Shown one piece after another: positions 1 through 29,168 of a stretch of DNA of 41,960 bases. Position 1 is the first letter of the stretch, and each line of letters begins with the position of its first letter. Made by a program: the position numbers and the translations under genes. Source of the DNA: Methanobacteriota archaeon. Its GTDB lineage: Archaea; Thermoplasmatota; Thermoplasmata; RBG-16-68-12. The notes beneath the pieces were generated by a model that saw only the letters and a program-made list of their open reading frames with translations, was not told the origin of the DNA and ran no database searches. The DNA lies in assembly GCA_005878985.1 (NCBI GenBank), contig VBMA01000087.1:1-41960 (forward strand). The letters are read 5' to 3'.

Positions 1-266
1 GTGTCATTCACATGAATCGTCGTGAACTTCTGCTCGGCCCACCACCACGGAGGCGCAAGCTCGACGCTGTAATTCGTCCCGTTCGCCGCCGTCAGCGTCA
101 GTTCCACACTCTCATTGAAATGCGGATTCCAATCCACCGCGGTCACGGTGCCTTCGACCGTCACCAGGTTCTCCGGCGACTCGGAGTCCATCGCATGGAT
201 GGCGACTCCGGCACCGACCGAGGTCACGAGGGCCATCGCGAGAATCGCATACAGAGCGTTCGACAT
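1..266 (-). CDS. Small exported protein, 3' end cut off by window edge
   Basis: The reverse strand opens with ATG at 264-266 and stays open to the window edge (88 codons seen, no stop). The first ~20 residues (MSNALYAILAMALVTSVGAG) form a hydrophobic signal or anchor segment. The following part is polar, contains an NGTNYS glycosylation-type sequon and a WWW triplet. A GAGG-like ribosome-binding sequence lies about 8 bases before the ATG, and a TTAAC-type TATA candidate lies near 300-311. I do not recognise the family. It is likely an exported or membrane-anchored protein, but the missing C-terminus prevents a better call. Confidence 0.6.
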   Translation of the reverse strand, partial: MSNALYAILAMALVTSVGAGVAIHAMDSESPENLVTVEGTVTAVDWNPHFNESVELTLTAANGTNYSVELAPPWWWAEQKFTTIHVND

Positions 267-463: not shown

Positions 464-814
464 TCAGGTTGACGCTCCGGGCCGGCGTCCCCGCGTTAGG
501 GCCGAGGCCAGGAGAGCCACCACTCGTCGAAAGATCTCGTCCGAGACGCGGCCCACTAGGGTGTGGACGAGGGCGCGATGGATCGTGAAGAGCTTCATGG
601 GACGGACCTCGCTTCGCCTCGGCAACCGACCCTCGGCCATCTCGCGATCGTCCAACGGAATCGCATCGCGGCGTCGGGAAATCTTCGAAGTCACGCCGCA
701 GACGATGAGATCCTCGCCGTGGACGATGAGCACGAGGGCGGGACGACGTTTGATGGCGGAAAGGTCGGTGAACGGGAACGAGACGGTGACCAGGGAGCCC
801 GGGCGGAGAGCCAA
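464..814 (-). CDS. MazF/PemK-like toxin of a type II toxin-antitoxin pair
   Basis: The 116-residue protein has the MazF/PemK (CcdB-like barrel) layout. It opens with PGSLVTVSFPFTDLSAIKRRPALVL, where 'G.lv.v.fPftD.s..K.RPalVl' is the family signature, and it ends with SEVRPMKLFTIHRALV plus a helix. Family members are mRNA-cleaving endoribonucleases held inactive by the partner antitoxin; activity here is inferred. The start is TTG at 812-814, preceded by GAGGT four bases upstream. It lies 12 bases after the antitoxin stop and in the same reading frame as it, so the two are surely co-transcribed. The C-terminal tail (ALTRGRRPGAST) is basic. Length is normal for the family. Confidence 0.8.
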   Translation of the reverse strand: MALRPGSLVTVSFPFTDLSAIKRRPALVLIVHGEDLIVCGVTSKISRRRDAIPLDDREMAEGRLPRRSEVRPMKLFTIHRALVHTLVGRVSDEIFRRVVALLASALTRGRRPGAST

Positions 815-826
815 TCGAACCTCGCC

Positions 827-1072
827 TCACACGCCGTCCCAGACATCGTCCTCCGAGTTCTCCCACAAGCTCCTCAGCGCGTCTTCCGTGGCGCGAAGAA
901 GCGGGGCGAACTCGTCGTTCAGGATCCCTTCGACGTCGTCCTTCTTGCGGAGCACGAGGGTGTCTCCGGATTCGAGAAGCACAAGGTCCGTATCCCGATC
1001 GAGTCTGTGCCTTGTACGAACTTCCTTCGGAATCACAATCTGGCCCTTACTCGACATTTTCACGACATGCAC
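827..1072 (-). CDS. AbrB/SpoVT-family antitoxin
   Basis: The N-terminal part (MSSKGQIVIPKEVR..) is the swapped-hairpin AbrB/SpoVT DNA-binding domain with its 'KGQ.viPk..R' signature, followed by a short beta segment (LVLLESGDTLVLRKK). The acidic C-terminal helix (ILNDEFAPLLRATEDALRSLWENSEDDVWDGV) is the expected toxin-binding part. It should bind the MazF-like product encoded just downstream and repress its own promoter, as such antitoxins usually do. The GTG at 1070-1072 is about 29 bases from a TATA candidate (1098-1104), which suits a leaderless mRNA. An internal ATG at 1055-1057 is the alternative and would trim five residues. Confidence 0.85.
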   Translation of the reverse strand: MHVVKMSSKGQIVIPKEVRTRHRLDRDTDLVLLESGDTLVLRKKDDVEGILNDEFAPLLRATEDALRSLWENSEDDVWDGV

Positions 1073-1159: not shown

Positions 1160-1168
1160 TTTAATATC
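1160..1168 (+). promoter_or_regulatory. TATA-box candidate for the four-gene exported-protein operon
   Basis: TTTAATATC stands out from the GC-rich surroundings. Transcription would start near 1190, leaving a leader of about 50 bases before the ATG at 1241. Confidence 0.45.
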
Positions 1169-1240: not shown

Positions 1241-2101
1241 ATGCGAGCCGCGGTACTCGTCCTCGTCGGCGCTCTCCTTGTCCTGGTGCTCGGCCTCTCG
1301 GCGCCGGGCGTCCGAGCCGCGGGGCCCACTCTGACAATCATCTCTCCCGCGGACCATGCGGTCATCGGGAACGGGACCCCTGTCGCAGTGATTTTCGTCG
1401 TGTCCGACTTCAATCTCACGCCGCCCGGGACCGGTGGGCCGTCGCCGACGGAAGGCCATGTGGACGTCTACGTGGACGGGCTGCTCACGATGGCCACGAG
1501 CCAGGAGACCATCGAGCTCCCGCTCGCATCGGGCACGTACGCGATCCTCTTGCGACTCGTCGCGGACAACGGGACCTCGCTGAACCCGGATGTGACGTCC
1601 TCGATCTCCGTCACGGTGACGCAAGGGCCTGCGGTCGGAACGCCCCGAATCGAGATCAGCTACGTCGAGATCATCTATCCAACCCCGGGACTGGTTCTGG
1701 GTCGCGACGTCACGATCTCCTTCCGGGTAACGGACTTCGCGCTCGTGCCCCCGGGACGCGGCGAGCCCGTCCCGAACGAGGGCCATGTCGCCGTGTTCTT
1801 GGACGATGTCTACGTCATGGCCGTGACGGCCTTCCGACCCATCCCCTTCTCCGACCTCGTCGACGGAAAGCACACCGTCACGGTCCAGCTGGTGGACGAC
1901 GCTGGCCGTCCGTTGACCCCGGACGCGTCCGACTCGGTCACATTCCAGATCCAGTTTGCCGCGATCGTCGACATCAACCCGTATCTCCAGATCACGCAAA
2001 TCATCTTGGTGGGCGCGATCGTCTTCGTGCTGTTCTACCGAGGCTGGGGCCGCAACCTGCTCGCGACGCTCTCGGGCCGAGTCGGGAGGAAGAACGCGTG
2101 A
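1241..2101 (+). CDS. Exported membrane-anchored protein with two DUF4399-like domains (operon gene 1, type A)
   Basis: The 286-residue product has a signal peptide (1-26, ending GVRA), two ~105-residue repeats (about 28-130 and 137-240), one transmembrane helix (QIILVGAIVFVLFY, about 252-270) and a basic cytosolic tail. Each repeat follows 'SP...VI.NG.PV.v.F.V.dF.L..PG...P.EGHV.Vy.DG ... LpsG.hti.lqLV.dnG..LnPD'. The EGHV...DG core followed by a '.L..G.HT..L.L' strand resembles DUF4399-type beta-sandwich domains; this resemblance is from memory and needs a profile search. The domains should face the outside. ATG 1241 was chosen because it begins the signal peptide; the open frame runs upstream without one. 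The stop overlaps the next start by four bases (GTGA). Closest relative in the window is the third operon gene. Confidence 0.85.
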   Translation: MRAAVLVLVGALLVLVLGLSAPGVRAAGPTLTIISPADHAVIGNGTPVAVIFVVSDFNLTPPGTGGPSPTEGHVDVYVDGLLTMATSQETIELPLASGTYAILLRLVADNGTSLNPDVTSSISVTVTQGPAVGTPRIEISYVEIIYPTPGLVLGRDVTISFRVTDFALVPPGRGEPVPNEGHVAVFLDDVYVMAVTAFRPIPFSDLVDGKHTVTVQLVDDAGRPLTPDASDSVTFQIQFAAIVDINPYLQITQIILVGAIVFVLFYRGWGRNLLATLSGRVGRKNA

Positions 2102-2988
2102 GGCCGCCGAAGCCAGATGCGATGTCCGATCCACTGGCGCGTCGGTGTTCAATCCCGCTCGCGCTCTTCGCATTCGCCATCCTGCTGGTCGTTTCGATTT
2201 CGAGCTCGCCGGCGGCTGCGGTGGCGCCGTCCCTGACGATCGTCTCGCCGACCGAAGGAGCCGTGATCGCGAACGGCACTCCCGTCCTCGTCCAATTCCA
2301 GGTGTCGAACTTCGCATTTGTCCAGCCGGGACGGGTGGGACAAATCGGGTCCCCGAACGAAGGTCACGCCAACGTCTTCCTCGACGCACAGCTCGTACGG
2401 CTCCTCACCGACGTCGAGCCGTTCTCACTCTCCCTGATCTCCGGACCCCATACGATCCAGATCCAGCTCGTCGCGGACAACGGCACCACGCTGAACCCGG
2501 ACGTCAGCGCGTCCGTACGCGTCGTGACGACCCTGGGCCCGGGAGGGGGAGTCCCCCGTATCACGATCCTTTCCCCGACGCGGCTCGAATCGACGGGTCA
2601 TGGAATCTACGTATCGTACCGGATCGAGAATTTCACGTTGGTGGAACCGCGAGGCCAACCGAACGCACCGGGCGAGGGTCACGTGCAGCTTCTCGTCGAG
2701 GGCGTCGTCGTGATGGAGGTGATTCAGTACGAGCCGGTCCTCCTCGTATCGTTGCCGGAAGGAGACATCACCATCTCGGCGCGTCTCGTGAACAACGACA
2801 ACACCACCCTGACCCCCGATGCGCGAGCTGACGTGCCAATCCACGTGGTCGCGTCGTCCTCCGTGAGCTTGCCGCTCGTCTCCAACGGCGGAGTCGCGCT
2901 TCTCCTGGCCTTCATCCTGGTCGTCCTGATCCTGCGCCGCCGGAAGGTCGTGGCCCGGCCCCCGAACAATCGCGGGGGGAGTCCTTAA
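2098..2988 (+). CDS. Exported membrane-anchored protein with two DUF4399-like domains (operon gene 2, type B)
   Basis: The 296-residue product starts with GTG at 2098, overlapping the previous stop; an ATG at 2122 (residue 9) is a possible alternative. It has a signal peptide (to about residue 41, SSSPAAAVA), two repeats of the same domain as gene 1, a transmembrane helix near the C-terminus (GGVALLLAFILVVLIL) and a RRRK stop-transfer tail. In type B proteins the first repeat carries FVQPGRVGQ.G.P.EGH and the second carries RGQPNAP.EGH and LVNNDNT.L.PDA. These features are shared with gene 4 and not with genes 1 and 3. Function is unknown; the neighbours suggest the four proteins act together at the surface, for instance as a heteromeric receptor or structural element. 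Confidence 0.83.
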   Translation: MRPPKPDAMSDPLARRCSIPLALFAFAILLVVSISSSPAAAVAPSLTIVSPTEGAVIANGTPVLVQFQVSNFAFVQPGRVGQIGSPNEGHANVFLDAQLVRLLTDVEPFSLSLISGPHTIQIQLVADNGTTLNPDVSASVRVVTTLGPGGGVPRITILSPTRLESTGHGIYVSYRIENFTLVEPRGQPNAPGEGHVQLLVEGVVVMEVIQYEPVLLVSLPEGDITISARLVNNDNTTLTPDARADVPIHVVASSSVSLPLVSNGGVALLLAFILVVLILRRRKVVARPPNNRGGSP

Positions 2989-2989
2989 C

Positions 2990-3808
2990 GTGAACGCGCG
3001 AATCGTCGCCTTGCTCCTCGCGACGGTCGGGGTGATCATCGTCTCGGGATTCGCCTCATCCAGCGTGCGCGCGGCTCCGGCTCCCACCCTGTCGATCGTC
3101 TCGCCGAGTCCGAATGCGGTGATTGGCAACGGCAGTCCGGTCGTGGTCGTCTTTGAGGTGACGAACTTCAATCTCACGGATCCGGGGAACGGAACGTCCT
3201 CACCGGACTCCGGCCACGTCGACATCTTCGTGGACGGTGGGTGGACCGCGAAGGCGAGCGTCAACACGATCGTCCTCGCGCTTCCCTCGGGGCCGCACAC
3301 GATCCGGTTGCAGTTGGTCATGGACAACGGGTCCGCCCTGAACCCGGACGTCACGGCGTCTGTCGCGGTAATGGTGACACAGGGACCCGCGGGCGGCACG
3401 CCGGGCCTTTCGATCTTCTACCCTCGCGAAGGCGCACTCCTCGGGACCGATTCGACGATCTCCTTCCGGGTCACGAATTTCGTCGTGGTCGCGCCGGGCG
3501 GACCCACGGGCGTCCCGAACGAAGGCCATGTCCGCGTGCTCCTCGATGGCGCGTACTATGCGGACCTAACGGACGTTGCACCGTTGCATCTGAACCTGAA
3601 AGACGGTCTCCACAACGTCACGCTTCAACTCGTCGACAACGCCGGCAGTCCGCTGAATCCAGATGTCGCGGTCAGCCTTCACATCACGGTGCAGGCGCTC
3701 GTCGGAAGGGTCACCCCATTCGATGCGACCCCGTTCTTGGCCCTTGCAAACCTGCTAATCGGGCTTGGGATCCTCGCGGCAATCTACCGCAAGCTGGAGG
3801 CCCGCTGA
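2990..3808 (+). CDS. Exported membrane-anchored protein with two DUF4399-like domains (operon gene 3, type A)
   Basis: GTG at 2990 follows the previous stop by one base. The 272-residue product has a signal peptide (1-28, SSVRAAPAP), two EGHV/SGHV domains (about 32-132 and 138-240) and a final hydrophobic helix (FLALANLLIGLGILAAIY) with a short KLEAR tail. It matches gene 1 in the NFNLT..G.G..P..GHVD...DG stretch, the TQGPA.GTP linker between the repeats, and the short C-terminal anchor. The second repeat has PNEGHVRVLLDG. It is therefore a type A paralogue. The ligand is unknown. Confidence 0.83.
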   Translation: MNARIVALLLATVGVIIVSGFASSSVRAAPAPTLSIVSPSPNAVIGNGSPVVVVFEVTNFNLTDPGNGTSSPDSGHVDIFVDGGWTAKASVNTIVLALPSGPHTIRLQLVMDNGSALNPDVTASVAVMVTQGPAGGTPGLSIFYPREGALLGTDSTISFRVTNFVVVAPGGPTGVPNEGHVRVLLDGAYYADLTDVAPLHLNLKDGLHNVTLQLVDNAGSPLNPDVAVSLHITVQALVGRVTPFDATPFLALANLLIGLGILAAIYRKLEAR

Positions 3809-3810
3809 TC

Positions 3811-4695
3811 GTGCGCGCGCCCATGCGACCCTCACACAGCCGCTCCTCGGACGGTCGAGCCGCAATGCCCGGGTTGTGCCTGCTCCTCGGAATCTTCCTG
3901 TTCGCCGTCACGAGTCCACCGGCTGCGGCAGCGGGGCCATCGCTGTCGATCCTCACGCCGGCGAACGACCAGGTCGTCGGCAATGGCACGCCGGTGATCG
4001 TCAGCTTCGCGGTGGCCAACTTCGTCCTCGTGCAGCCCGGTCGCGTCGGTCAGGTCGGTACTCCGACCGAAGGGCATGTGGACCTGTACGTGGACGGCGT
4101 TTACTCCCGGCTTCTCACACGAGTCGAGCCCGTCTCGCTCCCGCTCGAGTCAGGGCCACACACGATTCGGCTGCAGCTCGTCCAGGACAACGGGACGCCC
4201 CTCAATCCCGACGTCTCCGCATCCGTGAGGGTCGTCGCGACCCATGGCCCCGCGGCTGGCACGCCGACGATCGCGATCGTGTCCCCGAAACCGGGTCCGA
4301 CCATTTCCCACGACCTGTACTTTGCAATCGAAGTCACGAACTTCACGCTCGTGGACGCAACCGGCCAACCGAACGCTCCGAACGAAGGCCACATTCAGCT
4401 GCTCTTGAACGGAGTGCTGCACCAGGAGCCGCGCGCCTACGATCTCGGATTCATCGTCGACATGCCCGACGGGAACAGCACGGTCATCGCGCGACTGGTG
4501 AACAACGACAATACCCCGTTGAACCCCGACGCGTCGGCGAGCGTGACGGTCCGGATCCTGGGCGCCGCGGACCCGACCACATCCGAACAGGTGACGGCGG
4601 GGGTGACACTCATCCTCGCGGTCATTTTGCTCGTCTTGCTCCTCCGGAGGCGAAAGGCGGCCGGGCGGTTCGCCCCGCCGAACGTAGAGCCCTAG
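3811..4695 (+). CDS. Exported membrane-anchored protein with two DUF4399-like domains (operon gene 4, type B)
   Basis: GTG at 3811 comes two bases after the preceding stop; in-frame ATGs at 3823 and 3865 are alternatives, and the hydrophobic signal (PGLCLLLGIFLFAVTSPPAAAA) lies just after the last one. From the GTG the protein has 294 residues: signal peptide, two repeats, a C-terminal helix (AGVTLILAVILLVLLL) and a RRRK tail. FVLVQPGRVGQVGTPTEGH, GQPNAPNEGH and LVNNDNTPLNPDAS match gene 2 closely. It ends the operon; a strong AT-rich promoter for the next gene follows within 15 bases. Confidence 0.82.
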   Translation: MRAPMRPSHSRSSDGRAAMPGLCLLLGIFLFAVTSPPAAAAGPSLSILTPANDQVVGNGTPVIVSFAVANFVLVQPGRVGQVGTPTEGHVDLYVDGVYSRLLTRVEPVSLPLESGPHTIRLQLVQDNGTPLNPDVSASVRVVATHGPAAGTPTIAIVSPKPGPTISHDLYFAIEVTNFTLVDATGQPNAPNEGHIQLLLNGVLHQEPRAYDLGFIVDMPDGNSTVIARLVNNDNTPLNPDASASVTVRILGAADPTTSEQVTAGVTLILAVILLVLLLRRRKAAGRFAPPNVEP

Positions 4696-4748: not shown

Positions 4749-5669
4749 ATGGGCCATCGATTGTTCGGGGACTCAGCGACCGCTTCCGGGGTGAGATGGC
4801 TCCTGATCGCGCTCCTGCTGGCCGCCGTCGGGGACTTGGTCTTGGACGTGCCGTACTATTTCGGTACGGTCATCCCGGGCCTCGCCGCGCTGTCGGGCCG
4901 GTCGTCCTATCGGCTCTACGCATCCGTGCTCAGCGTCGCGCTACCGACGGTCATGGGCCCGATCGGATTCGTGGGCATCCTCCGGATCGAACGAGGCCGC
5001 GGATGGACCCGCGAGTGGCGAGGGGAGCGGGCTCGGCCCGCGTTGTTTGTCGCGGCCGCGGCCGCCGCTTTCCTCTTCGGTTCCGGGGTCGTCTTGGCCT
5101 TAACCCGAGACCCCATTGAAGTCATCTGGAATTCGGTTCGGATGACCGCTCGGTTCGTCATCGTCCTTGCCGGAGGCGTCTATCTGCTCGAGACGTCGGC
5201 GCGAATCGACCCGGGATCACGGAGCGGGCTCGCAACGACCGCGTTCGTCGTCGGCACGTTCGCCGGGGGCGTCCGGATGCTGATTGCGACCTACAACGGA
5301 TTGGTCGCCTCCACCGTTCCCGCCGACTTCGTGCGGGGGCAGGTCGAACCGCTTCTCGCCCCTGCGGCGTTCGTACTTGCGGTGCTTTCGCTCTTCGGTT
5401 GGGTCGTGGTCTATGACCGAATTCGCGGCGGGTTGGCCCGGATGCGGGCCGAAGGGATGCCGCAAACGCCGTTGCCTTTCAGCTCTCGCTCGGACGGGCC
5501 TCCGGTTGGCTCGGAAGCCTCCTTCGAGAGAGCGACCAACCGACCCCCAGTGCCAGGATCCCTCCCAGGATCCACGCCAATGGGAGCCAATCGGGGTTCA
5601 CCCGAAGGACCAAACCGACCACCAGGAACGCAAGAGTCGAAAGACCAAGCGCGCTCCCCATCACAATGA
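4749..5669 (+). CDS. Six-helix membrane protein of unknown function
   Basis: The 306-residue product has about six hydrophobic helices (near residues 16-38, 56-79, 95-117, 127-146, 158-182 and 196-216) and then a 90-residue Pro/Gly/Ser-rich tail with no hydrophobic stretch. I do not recognise the family. The tail from about residue 243 is encoded antisense to the C-terminal helix region of the convergent flippase and looks non-globular. The original stop may have been lost. The dedicated TATA element separates it from the four-gene operon before it. Confidence 0.7.
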   Translation: MGHRLFGDSATASGVRWLLIALLLAAVGDLVLDVPYYFGTVIPGLAALSGRSSYRLYASVLSVALPTVMGPIGFVGILRIERGRGWTREWRGERARPALFVAAAAAAFLFGSGVVLALTRDPIEVIWNSVRMTARFVIVLAGGVYLLETSARIDPGSRSGLATTAFVVGTFAGGVRMLIATYNGLVASTVPADFVRGQVEPLLAPAAFVLAVLSLFGWVVVYDRIRGGLARMRAEGMPQTPLPFSSRSDGPPVGSEASFERATNRPPVPGSLPGSTPMGANRGSPEGPNRPPGTQESKDQARSPSQ

Positions 5670-6759
5670 GGGCCATCGGGCGCCGATCGACGTTGAACTG
5701 CGCCTTGTAGAGCTGGATCCCGGCCTTCGGAAGCGTTGCAAGTAGGAACAGTTGCAAGGCGAGTCCGTGGTTTCCGTACGTGGTCCCACCGACAATCGTC
5801 ATGCCGATTTGGGCGAGCACCACGCCCAGCGCGACCATGGGGACCAGGACCGCCAGCAGGAGGCGGCGCATGCTCGAAGTCAACGAGGACGGCAGGTAGT
5901 CGCGGATCGAACCGTGGGCGAACAGAGACTTCGACACCGACTCCGGGACGTAGTTCAGGACCTCCGCGAGTTGCAAGGCGATGAAGAAGTAGGCGACGGG
6001 ACTCGCCCCGACGAAAATCAACAGGATCGAGGGCCCGAGGCGGCTGGGGAGGGAGTACATCAGACCGTGGATCCAATTCCCGGCGGAGAGTGAGGCGAGC
6101 TCGCGGAAGCGCGTGGGGACCCCTTTCTCATTCCGCGCCGGCCAGACCCGCTGGACGAGGAAGAAGCTCACGATGGTAATGGCGAGCAGGGGCAGCGTGT
6201 ACGATCCAAAGAGGCCGACGACACCCGCCCCCGCGAGGGCGAACACGAGGGCGATTTTGACGAGGCCATAGGCGACCGCGCGGTACGCGAGGTACTCGCT
6301 TTTCCGTGCCGCCAGGATCGAGCCGTCCGTGATCTGGAAACAGGTCTGGGACGTGGTGAGCGCGACGCTCAGCGCGACGAGGACGGCGAACGCCTTGTCG
6401 GCCTCCGCATCATTGCTTAGATGGAGGACCGTCGTGGACAATGCGAGTCCCACGATTGCAGAGAGGACCCCGCCAACGAGGAGAACCTGCCACATCAGGG
6501 CGCGGGGTCGATCGACTCGGGCCGCGAAGCGGACGAGTCCGTTGTCCAGCCCCAGAATTCCGATCGACGTGGCCAGGGATGAAAGAGATACGAGAGCCCC
6601 CGCGGTTCCCACCGCGGTCGAGGTGAAGAGATGCGCCGCGAGGGCCCAGAACGCGAAGCCCAGGATGGAATTCGCGATGCTCCCAGCGAACACCCATCCC
6701 CCTTGCTGTCGAACCAGTTCCGACTCGGACATCGGTTCGGTTCGGAGGACCGGTCTCAT
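5479..6759 (-). CDS. Polysaccharide flippase-like membrane protein (Wzx/MATE-like, MOP superfamily)
   Basis: The 426-residue product begins RPVLRTEPMSESELVRQQGGWVFAGSI, followed by alternating hydrophobic segments consistent with 12 or more helices. The early 'LVRQ.GW.F.GS..NS.LGF.FW.LAAHLF' helix is typical of polysaccharide_synt/Wzx-type flippases, which move lipid-linked oligosaccharides across the membrane. This fits the glycosyltransferases in the window. Start choice is uncertain. ATG 6759 and ATG 6732 both suit the family, but a TATA candidate at 6921-6934 is 25 bases from an in-frame ATG at 6903, which would add 48 residues of non-membrane sequence. Its last 191 bases overlap the convergent membrane protein. 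Confidence 0.78.
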   Translation of the reverse strand: MRPVLRTEPMSESELVRQQGGWVFAGSIANSILGFAFWALAAHLFTSTAVGTAGALVSLSSLATSIGILGLDNGLVRFAARVDRPRALMWQVLLVGGVLSAIVGLALSTTVLHLSNDAEADKAFAVLVALSVALTTSQTCFQITDGSILAARKSEYLAYRAVAYGLVKIALVFALAGAGVVGLFGSYTLPLLAITIVSFFLVQRVWPARNEKGVPTRFRELASLSAGNWIHGLMYSLPSRLGPSILLIFVGASPVAYFFIALQLAEVLNYVPESVSKSLFAHGSIRDYLPSSLTSSMRRLLLAVLVPMVALGVVLAQIGMTIVGGTTYGNHGLALQLFLLATLPKAGIQLYKAQFNVDRRPMALIVMGSALGLSTLAFLVVGLVLRVNPDWLPLAWILGGILALGVGWSLSRRRLPSQPEARPSES

Positions 6760-6920
6760 CCAGGGGAATTCCCAGTCCTCGATCACGCCCACGGACGGAT
6801 AGCATTGAGGATGAGCCGATAAGAGTTTCGCGCAACCTGCAATCGTCGGCCGGCGCCGAGTCGCACCCGCGGTGCTTCGTGTGGATAGACGATTCCGACC
6901 CATTCGACGGGCGTTCCCAA

Positions 6921-6934
6921 ACCGATAAATAGTG
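6921..6934 (-). promoter_or_regulatory. TATA-box candidate upstream of the flippase
   Basis: The reverse strand reads ACTATTTATCGGT. It is the best AT-rich element in the 325-base gap between the flippase and the first phosphoesterase, which otherwise shows no gene. Spacing fits a leaderless start at ATG 6903 or a long leader to ATG 6759. Confidence 0.4.
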
Positions 6935-7085
6935 TGCCCAAGTCTCGGAGTCTTACCCCCGCTGGTGACCCGGATTCTCAGCTCTGGTCGCCCGCACTCG
7001 CCCCCGACAGTCGTCGAATGCGCACACAACGTGCCGCGACACCCCGCTCTCGGCTAACATCCGCTTCGTCCGGGAGAAAACTCTC

Positions 7086-9572
7086 ATGGATTCACGTAAG
7101 AACCGCGTCGGCGCCGTGGCGGCGTCGATCGTGTTGCTCGTCGTCGCGCTCCTTGGCGCGAGCCTCGTTCTCAATCAGCGCGCCGGAACCCTCGCCGGTT
7201 CCTCCGGAGGGGCCGTCCAGGCCCTCGCCGCTTCCGGGCTCAACTTCGACTATGTCGTGATCATCCTGATGGAGAACCACAACATCTGCGACATCTACAC
7301 GCATTGCGGCGGCACCGGGACGTACATGACGGCCCTCGCGGACGCCTATTCGATCGCCCTCCAGGACGACTACTGCAACGTGAATCCGAGCCTTCCGAAC
7401 TACCTCTGTCTCTCGGGCGCCACGGACTTCGGATGTTCGGGATACGACGGCGGCCCGAACTCGAACGCCTGCACGAACAGTGCCTGGAACTCCCCCAGCA
7501 TCGTCGATCGGATCCTCGGGGCCGGGTTGACCTGGAAAGCGTACATGGAAGACATGCCGTCGAACTGCTACGGCAGCGATTCCGGGAACTACGCGGTCCG
7601 CCACAATCCGTTTGTGTATTACAACGACATCGTTAGCAATTCGACTCGGTGCAACCAAGTGGTCCCGGCGGGAACCGCGGGCAGCGCCTTGGTGGCCGAC
7701 CTCGCCTCGACGTCGACCGCCTCGAACTACATGTGGTTCACGCCGGACACGTGCAACGACATGCACGACTGCGACGTTCCGACGGGCGACACCTACCTGT
7801 CCGTCCTCGTGCCGCTGATCCTCGGGAGCAACGTCTTCCTCACCCAACGGGCCGCTCTCCTCCTCACGTTCGATGAGGGCTATGGCCAACCGATCTACAC
7901 GGTCTGGGCGGGTCCCGTCGTCAAGACGGCGTACACCTCGTCGACGGCGTACAGCCACTACTCGGTCCTCTCGACGATCGAGTCGAACTGGAACCTGCCT
8001 CCCCTGACGACGAATGACCAGAACGCCCCGAACATGAACGAGTTCTTCACGACGCCCACGGGCCCGGACTTCTCGCTTTCGGCGCATCCCTCGACCGTTT
8101 CGTTCGTCGCGGGTCAATCCGCGACGTCCACGATCTCTCTTCGCGCAACGGGCGGCTTCAACGGAACCGTCACCCTCAACGCGAGTTCGTCGCCTTCCGG
8201 CCTCACGAGCTCGTGCGTCCCCCTTAACATCAGCGGCAGTCAATCGTCGACGTGCACATTCACCGGATCAACCACGGGATCGTACACCGTCAGCATCACG
8301 GGCACGAACGGCTCGGTCGTCCACACGACCTGGATCGGCGTCACGGTCACCGCGCCGCCCACTCCCGACTTCTCGATCGCCGCAAACCCGACGAGTGTCT
8401 CGTTCGTGGCGGGGCAAACCGCGACTTCGACCATCTCCCTGCAATCCACGGGAGGCTTCGCAGGAACCGTCTCACTCATGGCGGTCTCATCGCCCGCGGG
8501 ACTCGCGATGTCGTGCGTCCCGTCGAGCATCACCGGATCCCAGACTTCCACGTGCACGATCGGCGGGACGACGCCCGGGTCCTACACGGCCGTCGTCACG
8601 GGCACGAACGGAACCCTCTCCCATTCGACGTCGATCGGGGTCGCTGTCACGCCCTCAGGACCGACGGCCCGGTTCACCTATTCCCCGCTGGCGGCCGTCG
8701 CGAACACCCCGGTCCTCTTCGATGCGTCGTCCTCCTCCGATTCGGATCCGAGCGCGACCCTCGAGGCGAGGTGGGATTGGGAAGGCGACGGCCTCTGGGA
8801 CACCGCATGGTCTCCCTCCCTGACCGGGCAGCATGTCTTCAAGGACGGGGGAACCTACGGGGTGACGCTGCAAATCCTCGATTCCCTGGGATTGGTCAAC
8901 ACCGCATCGCAGTCGGTGGTCGTCCGGAGCGCGGACGATAATGTGCCTCCCCAGGTCGCAATCCTCTCCCCGCCCAACGACACGGTCCTCGAGTCGGCCG
9001 ACGTCACGGTCGTGGGAACCGCCTCCGACAACGTGGGAATCGCAACGATCGAGCTGAGCACCGACAACGCCACGTGGACACCGACCACCGGGACGACGTC
9101 GTGGTCCGGGGTCGTCACGCTGAAGGCGGGGACGAACAATATCTATGCCCGCGCGACCGACACCTCGGGGAACAAACACGTGACTGTCATCACCGTGATC
9201 GCGAACAACCCGGACCGAGGTCCCGGAGTGGTGCCCGGCCTGATCGATCCGACCCTCCCGGTCCTGCTCGTCTTCGCGGGGATCTCCGCCCTCGTCGGGA
9301 CCCACGCGTTCCTCTGGAACCGATCCCGGACCTCGCGAGCCGCTCGAAAGAAGCATTCGGCGAGCGTCCGGCGACCCGAGACGGGGATCGCGATCGGAGG
9401 CTCGTCGCCGCCAGAGCGACCTTCCGACGCTGACCGTTCTACGGGCGCCTTCGGTCGCGGGCTCCCCGCGCGGGGCCATCCGATTCCGACGGGAACGGCG
9501 GGAGCGACTTCACGATCTGGCGCGTCGCGGCGCGGAGGGCCACTTCGGTCATCCCGCCGGCGGCGACGATGA
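7086..9572 (+). CDS. Exported phosphoesterase with two Ig-like repeats, PKD domain and C-terminal anchor
   Basis: The 828-residue protein begins with a signal/anchor (about 9-30). Residues 52-325 form a phosphoesterase domain of the phospholipase C/acid phosphatase (AcpA-like) family. Visible motifs are MENHN (62-66), NPSLPNY (100-106), HNPFVYY (173-179), CNDMHDCD (223-230) and FDEGYG (262-267). The E/N of the first and the D/E of the last are the expected metal ligands, and the Ser of NPSLPNY is the likely nucleophile by analogy. At least ten cysteines suggest disulphides outside the cell. Next come two near-identical ~95-residue Ig-like repeats (PDFS..A.P..VSFVAGQ), a PKD domain (520-610), an Ig-like domain (615-705), a helix (about 717-738) and an Arg-rich tail. 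The tail overlaps a convergent gene. GGGAG precedes the ATG by about 10 bases. The substrate is not evident. Confidence 0.85.
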   Translation: MDSRKNRVGAVAASIVLLVVALLGASLVLNQRAGTLAGSSGGAVQALAASGLNFDYVVIILMENHNICDIYTHCGGTGTYMTALADAYSIALQDDYCNVNPSLPNYLCLSGATDFGCSGYDGGPNSNACTNSAWNSPSIVDRILGAGLTWKAYMEDMPSNCYGSDSGNYAVRHNPFVYYNDIVSNSTRCNQVVPAGTAGSALVADLASTSTASNYMWFTPDTCNDMHDCDVPTGDTYLSVLVPLILGSNVFLTQRAALLLTFDEGYGQPIYTVWAGPVVKTAYTSSTAYSHYSVLSTIESNWNLPPLTTNDQNAPNMNEFFTTPTGPDFSLSAHPSTVSFVAGQSATSTISLRATGGFNGTVTLNASSSPSGLTSSCVPLNISGSQSSTCTFTGSTTGSYTVSITGTNGSVVHTTWIGVTVTAPPTPDFSIAANPTSVSFVAGQTATSTISLQSTGGFAGTVSLMAVSSPAGLAMSCVPSSITGSQTSTCTIGGTTPGSYTAVVTGTNGTLSHSTSIGVAVTPSGPTARFTYSPLAAVANTPVLFDASSSSDSDPSATLEARWDWEGDGLWDTAWSPSLTGQHVFKDGGTYGVTLQILDSLGLVNTASQSVVVRSADDNVPPQVAILSPPNDTVLESADVTVVGTASDNVGIATIELSTDNATWTPTTGTTSWSGVVTLKAGTNNIYARATDTSGNKHVTVITVIANNPDRGPGVVPGLIDPTLPVLLVFAGISALVGTHAFLWNRSRTSRAARKKHSASVRRPETGIAIGGSSPPERPSDADRSTGAFGRGLPARGHPIPTGTAGATSRSGASRRGGPLRSSRRRRR

Positions 9573-10011: not shown

Positions 10012-11391
10012 GTGTACCAAGGATCCCTGGGACGTCGAGGGCGTTCGATCCCGCTGACGTTCCTCCTGGCCGTGATCGTTTCCGCCGCCGCCTCCGCCGG
10101 GTCCCCGCATCCGGCGCGACCGGCGCTCGTCCAGGACATCCCGAAGGCGTCCGCCGCGGGGACGAACGTTTTCGATTACCTCGTGGTCATCGTCATGGAG
10201 AACCACAACCTGTGTGACATCCTCAAATCGTGCGGCGGCACGGCAACGTACATGTCGAACCTCGCGGGCGCTTGGGGACTCGCCCAGGACGATCACTACT
10301 GCAACGTCAATCCCAGTCTTCCGAACTACCTCTGCCTCACGGGCGGCAGCGATTTCGGCTGCAGCGGTTACGACGGGGACCCGCAATCGAACGCGTGCAC
10401 GAACGCGGCATGGGCCGCGCCGAACATCGTGGACCGAATCGTGACCGCGGGCCTGACGTGGAAGGCGTACATGGAAGACATGCCGTCCAACTGCTACGGC
10501 AGCGACTCCGGGAACTACGTGGTCCGTCACAATCCGTTCGTCTACTACAGCGACATCGCAAACAATGCGACACGATGCAGCCGGGTCGTCCCCGCGGGCA
10601 GCTCCGACAGCGCGTTGATCAACGATCTAGCATCCACGTCAACGGCGTCGAACTTGATGTGGCTCACACCGAACAAGTGCAACGACATCCACAGTTGCCC
10701 GATCGACACGGGCGATGCGTACCTGGCCGACCTGGTTCAGCGGATCTTGAGCAGTCCCGTCTTCACGACCCAGCGGGCGGCCCTGTACATCACGTTTGAC
10801 GAAGGGTACGGCCAACCGGTGTACACCGTCTGGGCCGGTCGCGTCGTAAACCCGACCTACACCTCGTCCGTCGCGTACGATCACTTCTCGCTCCTCGCCA
10901 CGATCGAATCGAACTGGAACCTGCCCACTCTCACCGCGAACGATGCGGGAGCGGCGGCGATGACCGAGTTCTTCACGCCGAACCCGCCGTCGAGCGACAC
11001 GGTCGCGCCAACTATCGCCATCGACTCGCCGTCCAACCATAGCAGTGCGTCGTCGCCGGTGAGTGTCACGGGAACCGCGTTCGACAACATCGCGATTCAG
11101 AAAGTCGAGCTGCGTGTCGACGGAGGCGCCTGGACGACGGCCACGGGGACGACCTCGTGGAGCGGATCCTTCCCTCTCGCGGTCGGGAATCATACAATCG
11201 ACGCGCGCGTGACGGACACGTCCGGCAACTCGAAGGCCGTTGGAATCTCCCTCAGCGTCACCCCCGGAGGCCCTCCTTTTGATTTCCTATCCATCCTCCC
11301 GGAAATTGTCGTGGGGCTCATCGTCGTGGCGGCCGTCGCGGGCCTCCTCATCTATCGACGACGGAAGAAAGCCCGGCCGCCTGAACCGTAG
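10012..11391 (+). CDS. Exported phosphoesterase with one Ig-like domain and C-terminal anchor
   Basis: The 459-residue protein starts with GTG and has a signal peptide (about 12-30). Its phosphoesterase domain is a close paralogue of the one at 7086-9572 and carries the same motifs: MENHN at 62-66, NPSLPNY, HNPFVYY, CNDIHSC and FDEGYG. The cysteine pattern is also conserved, so the enzyme looks intact. It lacks the two Ig repeats and PKD domain of the larger paralogue and has only one Ig-like domain (PTIAIDSPSN.. to LSVTPGG, about 338-425). A helix (IVVGLIVVAAVAGLLIY) and a RRRKKARPPEP tail follow. It probably hydrolyses a phosphomonoester or phosphodiester outside the cell while tethered to the membrane. 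The 3' end faces the DUF835 gene 21 bases away. Confidence 0.85.
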   Translation: MYQGSLGRRGRSIPLTFLLAVIVSAAASAGSPHPARPALVQDIPKASAAGTNVFDYLVVIVMENHNLCDILKSCGGTATYMSNLAGAWGLAQDDHYCNVNPSLPNYLCLTGGSDFGCSGYDGDPQSNACTNAAWAAPNIVDRIVTAGLTWKAYMEDMPSNCYGSDSGNYVVRHNPFVYYSDIANNATRCSRVVPAGSSDSALINDLASTSTASNLMWLTPNKCNDIHSCPIDTGDAYLADLVQRILSSPVFTTQRAALYITFDEGYGQPVYTVWAGRVVNPTYTSSVAYDHFSLLATIESNWNLPTLTANDAGAAAMTEFFTPNPPSSDTVAPTIAIDSPSNHSSASSPVSVTGTAFDNIAIQKVELRVDGGAWTTATGTTSWSGSFPLAVGNHTIDARVTDTSGNSKAVGISLSVTPGGPPFDFLSILPEIVVGLIVVAAVAGLLIYRRRKKARPPEP

Positions 11392-14848: not shown

Positions 14849-17800
14849 CTACCAGTCCGAGGAATCGTAGTCCTCGGGCGGCATGTCGTATGCGTCCGGC
14901 TCGCCTCGGTCCTCGTCTTCGTCGCGACGGAGGCGTCGGCGCCAGAAGGCGACCGCGAACAGGAGAAGGAACAGCGCGATCGCCGGCAGGATGAGCGGGA
15001 GCGTCTGGAACACTTCGAACACCCCGGACGACGCCGGGTTCACGGTGAACCGGATGACCTTGGCGTCCTGGTTGCCGGCCGCATCGTAGGCCGTCACTCG
15101 GACCGTGTGGGCCCCGTCGGACCAGCTGCGTGTGAGGCTCGTGGTCATGCCCACGGACTCCGTCGGCCCTCCATCGACGGACACCTCATAGCGGGCAATG
15201 CCCGAGGAACCGTCGGTGCCGGTCCACGTGATCGTCACGTCGGGGGTTGTCACGAGCCCGCTGGGAGAACCGTCGAGGGTCGGAGGTGTCAGGTCCACGT
15301 CGATCGAGGTGGATGCCTTCGGTTCGACGAACCCGGCGGAATCCCAGGATTGGTAGTCGAGCGCGTGCCGGCCTTCCGTCAGCATGAACGTCTGCGCGTA
15401 CTGCGTCCATCCGGAACCGTCGACGCTGTACATCGTGAAAATCCCGGTTCCGCTCGGACTCGTCGCGGTCAGTGTGACGTTCACCAGGGAGATGTACCAG
15501 CCGTTCTGACCAGCGGTGCCTGCGAGCTGCAACACCGTCACCGGGGGCCCGAACGACGATCCGCTGATTCGGACGACAGAGCTCTTCGTGCTCTCAAGAT
15601 TTCCCGCGACGTCCGTCGCGTAGTAATCGACCGTGTGGGTCCCATTTCCGCTGACCGGGAACGCGGCCGAATAGGAGCGCCACGCGCCCCCGTCCACCTG
15701 GTACTGGCTCGATTGGACTCCGCTCGTCGCATCTGTCGACGTCACGGTCACAGCGATCGAGGAGATGTACGATCCGTCGCCCGCTAGGGTGCCGGCGAGC
15801 TGGACCGACGAGCTCGGTGCGGTGCTGTCAATCTTCACGGCGACCGACCGCAGCGTCTCGTTGTTGCCCGAGTAGTCCGTGGAGTAGTAGTCGATTGCGT
15901 GGGATCCGTCGGCTTGGAAGGTGAACGGGCCGGAGTAGCTCTGCCACGTCCCGCCATCCGTCCGGAAGTGGATCGCCGCGACGCCGCTGGAATCGTCGAT
16001 GGCGGACAGCGTGACCGTCACCGCAGACGTGTACCAGCTGCCCGCGCCGCCTGTGCCCGAGGCACTGTAGGTCGTCACTGGAGGCGTGATGTCGTTCACG
16101 CTTCCCGGGGAGACCGCGTAGGTCGAGGGCGTCGAGGTCGGGACCGTGAACGAGAGACCGCCGAGGGGCGTCGACTGAGCACTGAAGATCCGGCTCGTTC
16201 CGCCGGTGTTCGTTCGCGTCACGTTGTACGTCGTGCTCGGGGTGAAGCCGGTGCCGTCGAAGACGACCGGCGTGGCGCTCTGGAGTTGGAACGAGATGCC
16301 CGCGGCCGAGAGGCTGGTCACATGGAGATTCGTCAGGGCGCCGGTCCATGAAGCGTGCAACGTCTGCGCATCGATGGTGCTGGCCGTGTCGAAGACCATC
16401 ATGCCGCCGACGATCGCCGAGAGATTCAGGGACGTGCCGGACCATTCAAGGGTCGCGCTGGTCGCCGCCGGAGACGTCACGAAGAGGACCGGCGTGAGGT
16501 CCGTCTTCTTGATTCCCGGTCCGAGGTCGACCACGGTCCCCTGGAAGCCCGTCGGAAGGCGGATTGGGGCGATTGCGACGCTCGAGTACGTCGTGTCGTA
16601 GATCGTGTCCGCCGCGGTGCTGATGCCCGGCCACGCCGAGTTATCGAGCACGTAGATCGCATAGTCGACATCGGAGATCGTGTTCGAGGCGATGACTCCC
16701 TGGTCCGATCCGACTTGGATTCCCCAGTGGAACGTGTGGATCACATTTCCGACGACGGCGGTCCCGTTCGAGAACCACTCCGTCTCGATGCCGCGAGGAT
16801 AGTCCGTCGCGACGGACTTGGAACCGGGATAGTCCATGTAGACGAGGTTCCATCCGATGATCGTGCCGACTGAACTCTCGGAGATGATGCCGCCGGCCGT
16901 TGCGTTCACGACTGTGTTCTGAATCGCGACCATCCCCGTGGCCCGTCGAGCGTCCGTGACGTGGTAGTCGCTGAGATGAATGCCAACCGTGTGGAACGTG
17001 CCGCTGGTGTGCGCATTCACGTAGTTCCCGAAGACCGTGATGCCGTGGACCCCGCGGTCCGTTGCGATGCCGTACACCCAGTCGAAGTTCGCGTCGAGCT
17101 GCACGTAGTTCGCCTCGACGTGGATGTCGCTCGATCCCTCGCGGATCGCGATGCCGTATGCGTGTTGCGCGTTCACGACCTCGTTGTGGCGGATCGTTAC
17201 GTGCTGCGTGCTGATCGTCGCGGGCCAGTGACCGAGCTGGAACGCTTCCCACTGGTTGGTTCCGGCGAGATTCGCGATCCTCACGTTCTCAATCACGACG
17301 TAGGAACTGGTGCCCTCGATCCAGAGCATCGCCTGGGAGCTCGCGTAGAGATTGCCGTCGATGAACCAGTCGCTGATGATGTACGGGTCCGTAATCGTGC
17401 CCGTCCCGCTGCGCACGCCGTTCGCGGCGGTGAACTGCGCATCGCTCCCGATGTAGATCGGACCGTGGGCCTGGAGGACCGTCGGATCCGTCAAGCCGGA
17501 GCCGGGAGGTGCTCCGACGCCTCCGCCTCCCGATGCAAAGACCGAGATCGCCTTGCTGTCCGTGTCGGACAATCCGCTCGAATCCTGGATCTCCAACTTC
17601 ACGGTGTACGTCCCGGATGCCCCGAACGCATGTTGCGCGGTCAGGGTCGAGGAGAGTGAGGTGTCCCATGTTCCGTCGGACTCCCAGTCCCAGCGGGCCT
17701 GTAAGGTCGCACTTGGATTCGAGTCTGTCGAGGTGGACGCGTCGAACGTAATCGTTTCGTTGACGGAAGGCACCGTGGGCGAGTACGTGAACCGGGCCGT

Positions 17801-19306
17801 GGGTCCGGCCGCGGTGATCGTGACGGCCACCGAAGCTGTATGGGCGAGTGCTCCGCTCGTCCCGGTGATCGTGACGGTGTACGTGCCTGCGTTCGTTCCG
17901 CTCAGCGTGCAAATCGATGTCTGGGTGCCACTGATGCTGGACGGCGCGCACGACGTCGTGACACCCGCGGGCGCGGAGGACGCGGTGAGCGCCACCGTCC
18001 CAGTGAACCCGCCCGTCGGGTGAAGGGAGATCGTCGAGGTCGCGGACTGACCGGCCAGGAACGAGACGCTGGTTGGATTCGCGGAGAGAGAGTAATCGGG
18101 TGTGGGCGGCGCCGTCACCGTGGTCGCAATCGGGGTCGTGTGGACGAGAGCCCCGCTCGTGCCTGTAATCGTGACCGCGTACGTGCCCGCATTCGTCCCG
18201 CTTAGGGTGCATGTGGACGTTTGAGTCCCGCTGATGCTGGACGGCCCGCACGACGTCGTGACTCCTACGGGGACCGATACCGCGGTGAGGGCGACCGTCC
18301 CCGTAAAGCCGCCACCCGCAGTCAAGCTGACCGTGGACGCCGCGGACAGACCGGCCACGAACGAGACGGTCGCCGGATTCGCGGAGAGCGTGAAATCCGG
18401 CCCGCCAGCATTGAAGAACTCGACTGGAGACGCAGCGCTCACATCGCCCTGCCCGAGGCTCCCTCCGCCCCAGACGTCCTCCAAGAGCTTCGCGAGCGAA
18501 TAGTGACTGTACGAGACCGTCGACTTGTACGCGAGCTTCGTCGCCGGACCGCTGAAGGACATGTAGATGTACGGAGGACTCGTGTACGCTTCGTCGAACA
18601 TGATGATGAGCGCGGCTTTCTTGCTCCCCATGGCCGTGAGCAGTCCGGGCACCCAGCTCTGCAGCCATGCGTCGCCCGATGACACGGAGTTGTCGTGCAT
18701 GTTGTGATTGTCCGTCGGCGTGAACCAGATGAAGTTCGTGCCGGCGTTCAACGCCGCGACGACGTCCGTCGTGCCGCCGGAGTGGAGGTTCGCGCACCGC
18801 GCGGCGTTGCCCGTGATCGTCGTGTACGATAGGAACGGGAAGTGGTCCTCGCCTCGCTGCGGGCTGATGGAACAGCCGGAGCCGCTGCCTTCCGCGATCG
18901 CGTTCCACGTGTGGCCCGAGGTCTCGATCAGGTCCACCAGGGTGGGATGGTTCAAGTTCGGATGGTTCCCGTCACCGGAGACGCCGAACGTGCTCGCGCC
19001 CAAGATGGCGATGTAGTTCGGCTGGGACGGATTCGTGATGCTCGCCCAGTGCTGTGAGAACGAGTATTGGTCGGCGAGCTGCGTCATGTACGGGGCGGGG
19101 CCGTAGATGTCGTTCAGATTGTGGTTCTCCATGAGGACGACGACGAGCTGATCGAAGTTCCCGGTGGCGCTGGAAGAAATCGGTCCGAGACCAGCCCCGT
19201 TACCGGGAGTGCTGAAGGGAACAATCCCCGAGACGATGAGGGCCGCGAGTACGAGAAGAGCGGAAGCCGAAAGGGCAACGAACGCGCGATGAGGCTGAGA
19301 ATCCAT
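14849..19306 (-). CDS. Giant exported phosphoesterase: Ig, PKD, beta-helix, OmpL47-like repeats and C-terminal anchor
   Basis: The 1485-residue modular protein has a signal peptide (about 8-27). Its phosphoesterase domain (50-300) has MENHN (59-63), NPSQPNY (92-98), HFPFLSY, NHNMHDN (200-206) and FDEAYT (237-242), with metal-binding residues in place but far fewer cysteines than the two other phosphoesterases. Then follow two Ig-like repeats (about 303-495, PDFTLSANP..VSFVAG) and a PKD domain (about 497-590). Next is a right-handed beta-helix region (about 600-920; repeated '.n.V....GI.......V..N.v' turns, NosD-like). Three OmpL47-like repeats (about 1075-1340), an Ig-like domain, a helix (about 1433-1455) and an Arg then Asp/Glu-rich cytosolic tail complete it. 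The beta-helix could bind or process a polysaccharide. GGAAGG lies just before the ATG. Confidence 0.87.
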   Translation of the reverse strand: MDSQPHRAFVALSASALLVLAALIVSGIVPFSTPGNGAGLGPISSSATGNFDQLVVVLMENHNLNDIYGPAPYMTQLADQYSFSQHWASITNPSQPNYIAILGASTFGVSGDGNHPNLNHPTLVDLIETSGHTWNAIAEGSGSGCSISPQRGEDHFPFLSYTTITGNAARCANLHSGGTTDVVAALNAGTNFIWFTPTDNHNMHDNSVSSGDAWLQSWVPGLLTAMGSKKAALIIMFDEAYTSPPYIYMSFSGPATKLAYKSTVSYSHYSLAKLLEDVWGGGSLGQGDVSAASPVEFFNAGGPDFTLSANPATVSFVAGLSAASTVSLTAGGGFTGTVALTAVSVPVGVTTSCGPSSISGTQTSTCTLSGTNAGTYAVTITGTSGALVHTTPIATTVTAPPTPDYSLSANPTSVSFLAGQSATSTISLHPTGGFTGTVALTASSAPAGVTTSCAPSSISGTQTSICTLSGTNAGTYTVTITGTSGALAHTASVAVTITAAGPTARFTYSPTVPSVNETITFDASTSTDSNPSATLQARWDWESDGTWDTSLSSTLTAQHAFGASGTYTVKLEIQDSSGLSDTDSKAISVFASGGGGVGAPPGSGLTDPTVLQAHGPIYIGSDAQFTAANGVRSGTGTITDPYIISDWFIDGNLYASSQAMLWIEGTSSYVVIENVRIANLAGTNQWEAFQLGHWPATISTQHVTIRHNEVVNAQHAYGIAIREGSSDIHVEANYVQLDANFDWVYGIATDRGVHGITVFGNYVNAHTSGTFHTVGIHLSDYHVTDARRATGMVAIQNTVVNATAGGIISESSVGTIIGWNLVYMDYPGSKSVATDYPRGIETEWFSNGTAVVGNVIHTFHWGIQVGSDQGVIASNTISDVDYAIYVLDNSAWPGISTAADTIYDTTYSSVAIAPIRLPTGFQGTVVDLGPGIKKTDLTPVLFVTSPAATSATLEWSGTSLNLSAIVGGMMVFDTASTIDAQTLHASWTGALTNLHVTSLSAAGISFQLQSATPVVFDGTGFTPSTTYNVTRTNTGGTSRIFSAQSTPLGGLSFTVPTSTPSTYAVSPGSVNDITPPVTTYSASGTGGAGSWYTSAVTVTLSAIDDSSGVAAIHFRTDGGTWQSYSGPFTFQADGSHAIDYYSTDYSGNNETLRSVAVKIDSTAPSSSVQLAGTLAGDGSYISSIAVTVTSTDATSGVQSSQYQVDGGAWRSYSAAFPVSGNGTHTVDYYATDVAGNLESTKSSVVRISGSSFGPPVTVLQLAGTAGQNGWYISLVNVTLTATSPSGTGIFTMYSVDGSGWTQYAQTFMLTEGRHALDYQSWDSAGFVEPKASTSIDVDLTPPTLDGSPSGLVTTPDVTITWTGTDGSSGIARYEVSVDGGPTESVGMTTSLTRSWSDGAHTVRVTAYDAAGNQDAKVIRFTVNPASSGVFEVFQTLPLILPAIALFLLLFAVAFWRRRLRRDEDEDRGEPDAYDMPPEDYDSSDW

Positions 19307-27384: not shown

Positions 27385-29086
27385 ATGTCCGAGGAGGGCT
27401 TCCCGAGCCGCGCTCCGACCCACCCAATTCGGTTCGGTGTCCTGTGCGACGGCCCGATGATCCCAACGTGGCAGGCTCGAACCATTCAGGAATTGAGGCG
27501 CGTCCCCGGGACCAGTCTCGCCCTGCTCGTCTTCCCGGAGGAAGGATCGTTGGACGGCTCACGGCCGGTGGGCCTCCTGTTCCGCGCGTATGTCGCATCG
27601 CACCCTTCCCGGGCGCTCCGGCCGGTGGACATGGCCCTCGCGTTTCCAGGGGTGCCGTCTTTGCGGTGCCATACGATGACCGAACGCGGGGTCACGCGCC
27701 GATACGATGAATCCGACGTTCGCCGAATCCGTGCCTATGACCTGGATTTCCTCCTGCAATGCGGGTTGGGCATCCTCGATGGCGGAATCCTGCAGGGGGC
27801 GCGCTACGGCGTATGGTCGTTTGAGCACGCCGACGAACCTCCCTATGGTGGGATCCCGCCGTGCCTCTGGCCCATCTACGACGGGGAAGCGGTCACGGGC
27901 GCGGTCCTGCGGCGCGTCGCGGGTCGCGTCGGCGGCGGCATCGCACTCCGAACCGGGTGCTTTCGGACCGCCCTTCACTCCCTCCGACAAAACATTGACG
28001 AGGTGCACTTCGGGGTTGTGGGATGGCCGGCGAACGTGTGCCAAGACCTCCGCCTGGGCCAGACCGCATACTTAGAGGGACCGTCGGCTCCTACACCGGC
28101 CGCCCCATCGCGCATTCCTTCGAACCGTCAGATGATGCGACTCGTCGTCCGACAAACTCGAAACGCCGTCCGTAGGGCGGCGCGCGCTCTCCTTCGCCAC
28201 GAAGAATGGTGCATCGGAGTCGCCGACGTGCCCATCAGCGCCTTCCTCGAAACCCGCGGGGAGAAGCGTGTTCGTTGGCTCAATCCTCCGGAGCGTGGGC
28301 GGTTCATCGCCGATCCGTTCGCTGCCCGGATCGACGGGGTCACTCACATCCTGTACGAAGATTTTCAATATGCGACCTCGAAGGGCGTGATCGGGACGGT
28401 CGAGGCCACCGCGACCGGGCCGCCCCGGATGCCCAAAGTCGCGATCGAATTGCCGGTCCACGCATCGTATCCGTATCTTGTCGTCGACCGCGAGGAAATC
28501 TATTGCATTCCGGAGACGAACGAAGCGAGGGAGGTTGGCCTTCACCGTGCGGTCGATTTCCCCACTCGATGGGAAAAGATCGGCACGCTCCTATCCGGGG
28601 TCGCGGCCCTCGACCCCACCGTCTTCCATCACAATGGCCGATGGTGGCTCACCTGTACCGAGCGAAAACATGCCTCTGTTCGTTTGGCATGCACGGAACC
28701 TCGAGGGGCCCTGGGAACCGCACGCGTTGAACCCAGTGAAGACGGACATCCGATCCTCGAGGCCTGCCGGTACGCCTTTCGTCCACGGCGGCATCCTGTA
28801 CCGACCCGCCCAAGATTGCTCGCGCATGTACGGAGGAGCGATTGTGATCAACCGGGTCGTGCGCCTGACCCCCACGGAGTTCGCGGAGGAGCCCGCCGCG
28901 ACCGTCGAGCCGTTCTCGGAGAGCCCGTTCCCCGATGGGATCCACACGCTTTCCGGAGTCGGGGATATCACGCTGATCGACAGCAAGCGACATCGCTTCG
29001 TTCCAAGTGCGATCCCGTACGTCATCCGCAATCGACCGGTTTCCGGGAGGGATCGCGCGATGTCCCACCGCATCGAACGACGGTAA
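27385..29086 (+). CDS. Formyltransferase-like/GINT1-like fusion protein, broken by a one-base frameshift
   Basis: The N-terminal half (about 1-230) resembles methionyl-tRNA formyltransferase-like domains (IRFGVLCDGPMIPTWQARTIQEL; LLQCGLGILDGGILQGARYGVWSFEHAD). The second half resembles the GINT1-N/GH43-like beta-propeller domain seen in surface glycan loci (RGRFIADPF, THILYEDF, DPTVFHHNGRWWLTCTE). After the A-run at 28665-28668 the frame is lost. The other forward frame continues the family sequence (PLFVWHARNLEGPWEPHALNPVKTD, AGTPFVHGGILYRPAQDCSRMYGGAIVINRV, IDSKRHRF) to TAA 29084-29086. Removing one A gives TERNMPLFVWHA and restores a ~567-residue protein. Reading on in frame instead ends at 29124 with an Arg-rich nonsense tail. 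It is a likely glycan-modifying protein; either a pseudogene or a sequencing error. Confidence 0.72.
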
Positions 29087-29168
29087 TCTTCGAGGATCGC
29101 GGGCACCGGGCAGCCTCCGCCTGACCTTCCGCGCCAGGGGGATTCGGCCCGTCGTCTGCGAAGGCCCG

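Follow-up and report, generated by a model that had tools for sequence, protein, structure and literature searches.

A duplicated A-B pair of predicted membrane-anchored DUF4399-family proteins in soil archaea

The stretch of DNA analysed here (the window) is an entire contig (C169) of 41,960 nucleotides with a GC content of 64% from the 2.1 Mb metagenome-assembled genome (MAG) of a soil archaeon, whose close relatives are the soil MAGs 'Euryarchaeota archaeon EA_'. Four adjacent genes of the window encode paralogous, predicted surface proteins of two types in the order A-B-A-B, and our work traces this tetrad back to an A-B pair that was copied as one unit. We favour the explanation, to which we give a probability of about 40%, that the tetrad is a duplicated pair of membrane-anchored envelope proteins whose DUF4399 ancestor was probably linked to copper and which is now tied to the export of a surface glycan. 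The genes and their probable promoter are the following:

1160-1167, forward strand: TATA-like box TTTAATAT, 81 bp upstream of gene 1; it probably serves as the promoter for all four genes.
1241-2101, forward strand: gene 1, A type; signal peptide, two DUF4399-like domains, C-terminal transmembrane (TM) helix at about residues 248-266 and basic tail; PF14347 score 33.1 bits.
2098-2988, forward strand: gene 2, B type; architecture as in gene 1, with RRRK after the TM helix; start in the GTGA overlap with gene 1; PF14347 score 18.2 bits, below the cut-off.
2990-3808, forward strand: gene 3, A type; PF14347 score 40.5 bits.
3811-4695, forward strand: gene 4, B type; PF14347 score 24.1 bits, below the cut-off; AlphaFold2 model with a mean pLDDT of 82.7.

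The proteins encoded by genes 1 and 3 are 50.2% identical and those of genes 2 and 4 50.3%, and the remaining four pairs share 39.0 to 42.3% of their residues. A profile made from the four genes finds them again with E values of about 1e-124 to 1e-133, as expected for a profile searched against its own members, and their relatedness, as judged from the sequences, is far beyond chance. In the protein tree, the tetrad proteins fall into four orthologue groups, of which 1 and 3 form clade A (support 99/98) and 2 and 4 form clade B (100/99); inside most groups, G002 branches first, followed by G012, G016 and then the window together with G010. The A-B-A-B order of paralogues, which an earlier note had read from shared motifs, is thus real. 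The motifs are all present, but LVNNDNT, attributed to genes 2 and 4, is confined to the second domain of each, and TQGPA.GTP, proposed as a feature of the A type and indeed found in genes 1 and 3, has the near-copy THGPAAGTP in gene 4.

The same note had proposed that the A-B pair was duplicated as a unit, and our trees agree: the protein tree and two outgroup-rooted domain trees pair 1 with 3 and 2 with 4, and the grouping of 1 with 2 and 3 with 4, at odds with a unit duplication, was not obtained. Moreover, both types have diverged to nearly the same extent, in the window (see above) as well as in G012 (47.4% for 1-3 and 48.1% for 2-4). A domain tree rooted on distant relatives reaches further back: the split between the first and the second domain (d1 and d2) precedes the A/B split, which in turn precedes the separation of 1 from 3 and of 2 from 4. 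As read from these trees, the order of events is domain duplication, A/B split, duplication of the A-B unit and speciation, and the two-domain architecture predates the A/B split. Single-copy two-domain relatives outside the tetrad are encoded in G001 (L041, 2204-3073) and in G268 (L121, 1308-2393), the latter a member of another family of the class; all d1 domains of the tetrad have d1 of the G001 protein as their sister, and d2 of this protein branches immediately outside the d2 group. An old protein of this kind was duplicated to give A and B, and the A-B unit was then duplicated within the genus. In G002, the first domains of genes 2 and 4 cluster, with about 90% DNA identity in codons 103-160, and the following stretch points to local gene conversion between the two genes:

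L039, 2028-2324 and 626-928, reverse strand: near-identical DNA of genes 2 and 4 in G002.

The four proteins share a predicted layout: a signal peptide is followed by two homologous domains and a hydrophobic helix at the C-terminus, and most of the proteins also have a short basic tail; as proposed before, this makes eight homologous domains, two on each of four predicted membrane-anchored, extracytoplasmic proteins. The junctions between the genes are indeed -4 (the GTGA overlap), +1 and +2 bases. Among the nine AT-only runs of at least 7 bp in the window, the TATA-like box is the sole one between 900 and 4700, and G010 has an identical octamer at equal distance before gene 1. No AT-rich box lies between genes 1 to 4, and a second one, at 4718, precedes the gene that starts at 4749; this pattern is consistent with a single transcript of genes 1 to 4. 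The cell surface would then receive two proteins of each type from one transcription unit. A signal peptide would export each of them, a single C-terminal membrane helix would anchor it, its two Ig/FnIII-like domains of the DUF4399 family would face the outside, and translational coupling would give a fixed A:B proportion. Upstream of the tetrad, the genes vary among the species and a conserved partner was not found; in G016, a gene for a 1054-aa protein (L043, 3699-6863, forward strand), by eye possibly a subtilisin-like protease, ends 16 bp upstream of the gene 1 reading frame, and this protein is not encoded on the syntenic G008 contig.

In a profile search of 150 related genomes, the four-gene unit turned up only in the genus of the window, and the A and B types as such were likewise found in a single genus. 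Complete tetrads on single contigs are present in the window, G012 (L037) and G002 (L039), all four genes are present in G010 and G016, split over contig breaks, and G008 and G015 have tetrad fragments at contig ends. The A-B pairing was thus found elsewhere, as the proposal of the earlier note required, in the form of the A-B-A-B tetrad of four other congeneric species; a lone A-B pair was never found in the related genomes. The -4 overlap of genes 1 and 2 is held in all five species with the start codons as read (G012 would use CTG). The DUF4399-like domain type is rare, being detected in 12 of 400 genomes of the class at a threshold of 1e-6, and eight of these are from this genus. The tetrad carriers that could be placed belong to one subclade (98/98) of the seryl-tRNA synthetase (serS) tree; the tetrad is missing from other members of this subclade, G014 (98% complete) and the less complete G001, G005 and G013, and therefore loss or non-recovery occurs. 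Between orthologues of each of the four genes, the ratio of nonsynonymous to synonymous substitution rates (NG86) is about 0.17 to 0.46, and all four are under purifying selection.

These data bear on the alternative that survives best, although we hold it to be rather unlikely: tandem duplication may have produced four interchangeable surface proteins, by drift or for dosage, with no partnership of A and B and with an order kept by vertical inheritance of the operon. Such inheritance accounts for the shared order, and the conversion in G002 shows that the copies can still homogenise locally. However, if the copies were interchangeable, some lineages should have lost one or the other, whereas every readable tetrad has all four genes, at orthologue identities down to about 54% and under purifying selection, and the TM region and the second domain show consistent differences between the copies.

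The suggestion of the earlier note that the domains belong near DUF4399 proved right at the level of homology: the PF14347 profile matches all four proteins, genes 1 and 3 passing and genes 2 and 4 missing the curated cut-off of 28 bits, and all four are mutual homologues. A genome search with PF14347 at 1e-3 was empty because the domains are too diverged, and alignment profiles were required instead. Sequence searches of PDB, PHROGs and NCBIfam gave no relative at a meaningful score. DUF4397 (PF14344) had no match anywhere in the genome and was rejected, as were weak matches in large Big/PKD proteins of other families (L012, L015, L018, L020 and L064), which are generic Ig-like domains without GHxH. 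The model of the gene 4 protein, built from an alignment of 19 family members, consists of the signal peptide, two all-beta (beta-sandwich) domains and the C-terminal helix; the mutual placement of the domains is unreliable because of the low pTM of 0.50. The G001 relative was modelled with a matching layout (pLDDT 84.0). Foldseek against PDB returned FnIII-/Ig-like folds, with the FnIII-like modules of CbhA at the top (3pe9_B, TMt 0.80, rmsd 2.1) and further matches to the biofilm scaffold RbmA (1.4e-5) and to cadherin/Ig tandems.

DUF4399 is scarcely characterised; a member from Phaeobacter has been predicted in complex with a DoxX-family membrane protein (PMC13311259). The literature that we found contains passing mentions of the family only, and metal binding is not described there. 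A Bradyrhizobium protein annotated as DUF4399 matches the G001 relative, and on the Bradyrhizobium plasmid pCB82_1 (L147, 2647-6002) a DUF4399 gene is followed by a caspase-family gene, with a formylglycine-generating-enzyme gene nearby. Contig C137 of G016 (L046, 1-1815, reverse strand) encodes a protein in which five DUF4399-like domains stand in tandem, GHxH and NNDH being kept in most of them; its gene is divergent from a neighbour that by eye resembles DUF4331.

The tetrad and its relatives differ in their histidines. Outside the tetrad, 12 domains of the class have GHxH and NN[DN]H without exception, and the G001 relative has all motif histidines in both domains, the G268 relative in domain 2 only. 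In the window tetrad, GH alone remains in most domains: the second histidine of HxH, replaced in GHVD, GHAN, GHVA, GHVQ, GHVR or GHIQ, and the histidine of NNDH, replaced by DNG, DAG, NAG or NNDN, are absent from all eight domains, which depart in this respect from the histidine pattern of their relatives. Older residues are kept in single domains, i. e. d2 of gene 3 in G012 (GHVH...NDH) and in G002 (GHIH...LHH). A gene for a membrane-anchored cupredoxin (type-1 copper domain of nitrite reductase, 5e-4) lies 2 bp after the gene of the G001 relative, and the DUF4399-like genes of G012 contig C47 and of G021 adjoin cupredoxin-like genes (nitrite-reductase-like, 3.5e-5). No cupredoxin was recognised among the searched window genes, and none appeared among the genes listed for the flanks of the tetrads. 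From these patterns, the ancestor was probably copper-linked, and we infer that the tetrad is not. During the expansion, most of the putative metal-site histidines would have been lost, giving rise to envelope scaffold or ligand-binding proteins. A search for the copper monooxygenase PF04744 in the genus gave no match and is uninformative, the control being likewise empty.

The tetrad might still serve copper or another metal, with extracytoplasmic DUF4399 chaperones delivering it to cupredoxins and with a site between A and B or built from EGH, Asp and Asn. The three histidine-rich relatives beside cupredoxin genes, the EGH retained in most tetrad domains together with the fuller motifs of G012 and G002, and the richness of soil Thermoplasmata of the order RBG-16-68-12 in blue copper proteins (PMC9038741) speak for this idea. 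We regard it as unlikely, as neither the HxH pair nor the NNDH histidine is found in any window domain, no cupredoxin was recognised in the searched window genes or noticed in the tetrad flanks, and the link of the relatives comes down to three loci, two of them probably orthologous, with none at G268.

The glycan part of our preferred explanation comes from the genes downstream of the tetrad:

4749-5669, forward strand: multi-spanning membrane protein with its own AT-rich box at 4718; no Pfam match.
5479-7029, reverse strand: MOP-like flippase candidate, transcribed towards the tetrad; in relatives, its orthologue is a neighbour of gene 4.

An orthologue of the flippase candidate adjoins gene 4 in all six genomes with a sufficiently long contig (window, G010, G015, G012, G016 and G002), and none was found in 12 congeners without the tetrad, whose flippases are 24-31% identical at best or absent. 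The 4749-5669 protein stands beside gene 4 in the window, G010 and G015 only and is thus associated but optional. The four ectodomains contain 16 N-x-S/T sequons where 6.4 are expected from composition, an excess not seen in the PF04185/Big surface proteins of the window, and the genome encodes the oligosaccharyltransferase STT3 (2.6e-20); for proteins predicted to be exported and membrane-anchored in such a host, this is suggestive of N-glycosylation. In our preferred explanation, A and B would act jointly at the membrane, together with the surface glycan that the neighbouring flippase would handle, in a structural or glycan-associated envelope role.

Several observations weigh against this explanation. 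The flippase assignment is weak: the 5479-7029 protein itself matches neither MatE nor Polysacc_synt, and its distant homologue L107 stays below the cut-offs of both (22.5 against 24.9 bits, 1e-4, and 17.6 against 28.2 bits, 0.0027). The link of flippase and tetrad may reflect shared ancestry in one subclade, defined by the serS single-gene tree. The sequon excess per protein is modest (p 0.04-0.08), some of the sites belong to turn motifs that were inherited, and the four paralogues do not count as independent cases. Contact between A and B is an assumption of ours, and conservation of the TM helices does not in general exceed that of the ectodomains; conserved helices as a sign of TM pairing were thus discarded as not general. 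Resemblance to scaffold and adhesion proteins is common to Ig/FnIII folds in general. Finally, with MAG completeness between 64 and 98%, several absences are weak.

A bolder version, which we consider improbable, would make A and B an obligate hetero-oligomer. Its two components would repeat to form a membrane-anchored layer or pillar of the envelope, built on, or organising, the glycan from the dedicated flippase, and it would have a metal-handling DUF4399 origin and a lost metal site. It is equally improbable that the proteins are adhesins or ligand-binding surface proteins (for cells, minerals or the cell's own polysaccharide) unconnected to export, as the fold matches to adhesion tandems and RbmA and a neighbourhood rich in PF04185/PKD/Big surface proteins would suggest, since these matches are unspecific and two short domains have little reach from the membrane.

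Other neighbours complete the picture of the window. Upstream and divergent from the tetrad, an AbrB-like antitoxin gene (827-1072, reverse strand) and a PemK/MazF-like toxin gene (464-814, reverse strand) were recognised by eye, and the AbrB-like gene is also present in G010 (80% identity). The contig-end gene (3-266, reverse strand) encodes a small exported protein with a weak DUF6152 match (0.002) and has a counterpart near the tetrad of G010 (89% identical). Downstream, 7086-9572, 10012-11391 and 14849-19306 are three paralogous PF04185 phosphoesterases with Big/PKD domains, and surface proteins of this type recur near the tetrad in G010, G015, G016 and G002. The window encodes one GT2 and several GT4-type glycosyltransferases, which speak for the glycan part of our explanation; within the glycosyltransferase region of this archaeon, 27385-29124 (forward strand) has a GINT1_N domain (inositolphosphorylceramide glucosaminyltransferase N-terminal, 1.1e-16), a name that derives from plant glycolipid synthesis.

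Taken together, the tetrad documents completely, and with support from trees, the path from a single-copy DUF4399 surface protein to a conserved A-B-A-B module in soil archaea. For this almost unstudied family, it provides two leads, a histidine site tied to copper proteins in the ancestral type and a link to a glycan flippase in the derived type. If the hetero-oligomeric envelope layer were true, it would be a hitherto undescribed envelope module, specific to one archaeal lineage.

In the literature searched, we found no described system with an A-B-A-B four-gene layout. The tetrad ectodomains are tandem copies of a PF14347-type domain, but unlike their DUF4399 relatives they have lost most of the conserved GHxH and NN[DN]H histidines, and the domain pairs sit on a membrane anchor and are encoded by four alternating genes. 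The single-copy proteins of G001 and G268 have the architecture of the tetrad proteins, and their domains branch with the matching position or just outside the tetrad, whereas they occur in one copy only and the G001 gene adjoins a cupredoxin gene at 2 bp. The FnIII-like modules of Clostridium thermocellum CbhA (3pdd, 3pe9) are the best single-domain fold match, but at about 13% identity and as parts of a secreted cellulase without a membrane anchor they resemble the tetrad in fold only. RbmA, the biofilm scaffold of Vibrio cholerae, has two tandem extracellular FnIII-like domains as the tetrad proteins do; it is secreted rather than membrane-anchored, and its likeness, again one of fold, serves us as a working analogy.

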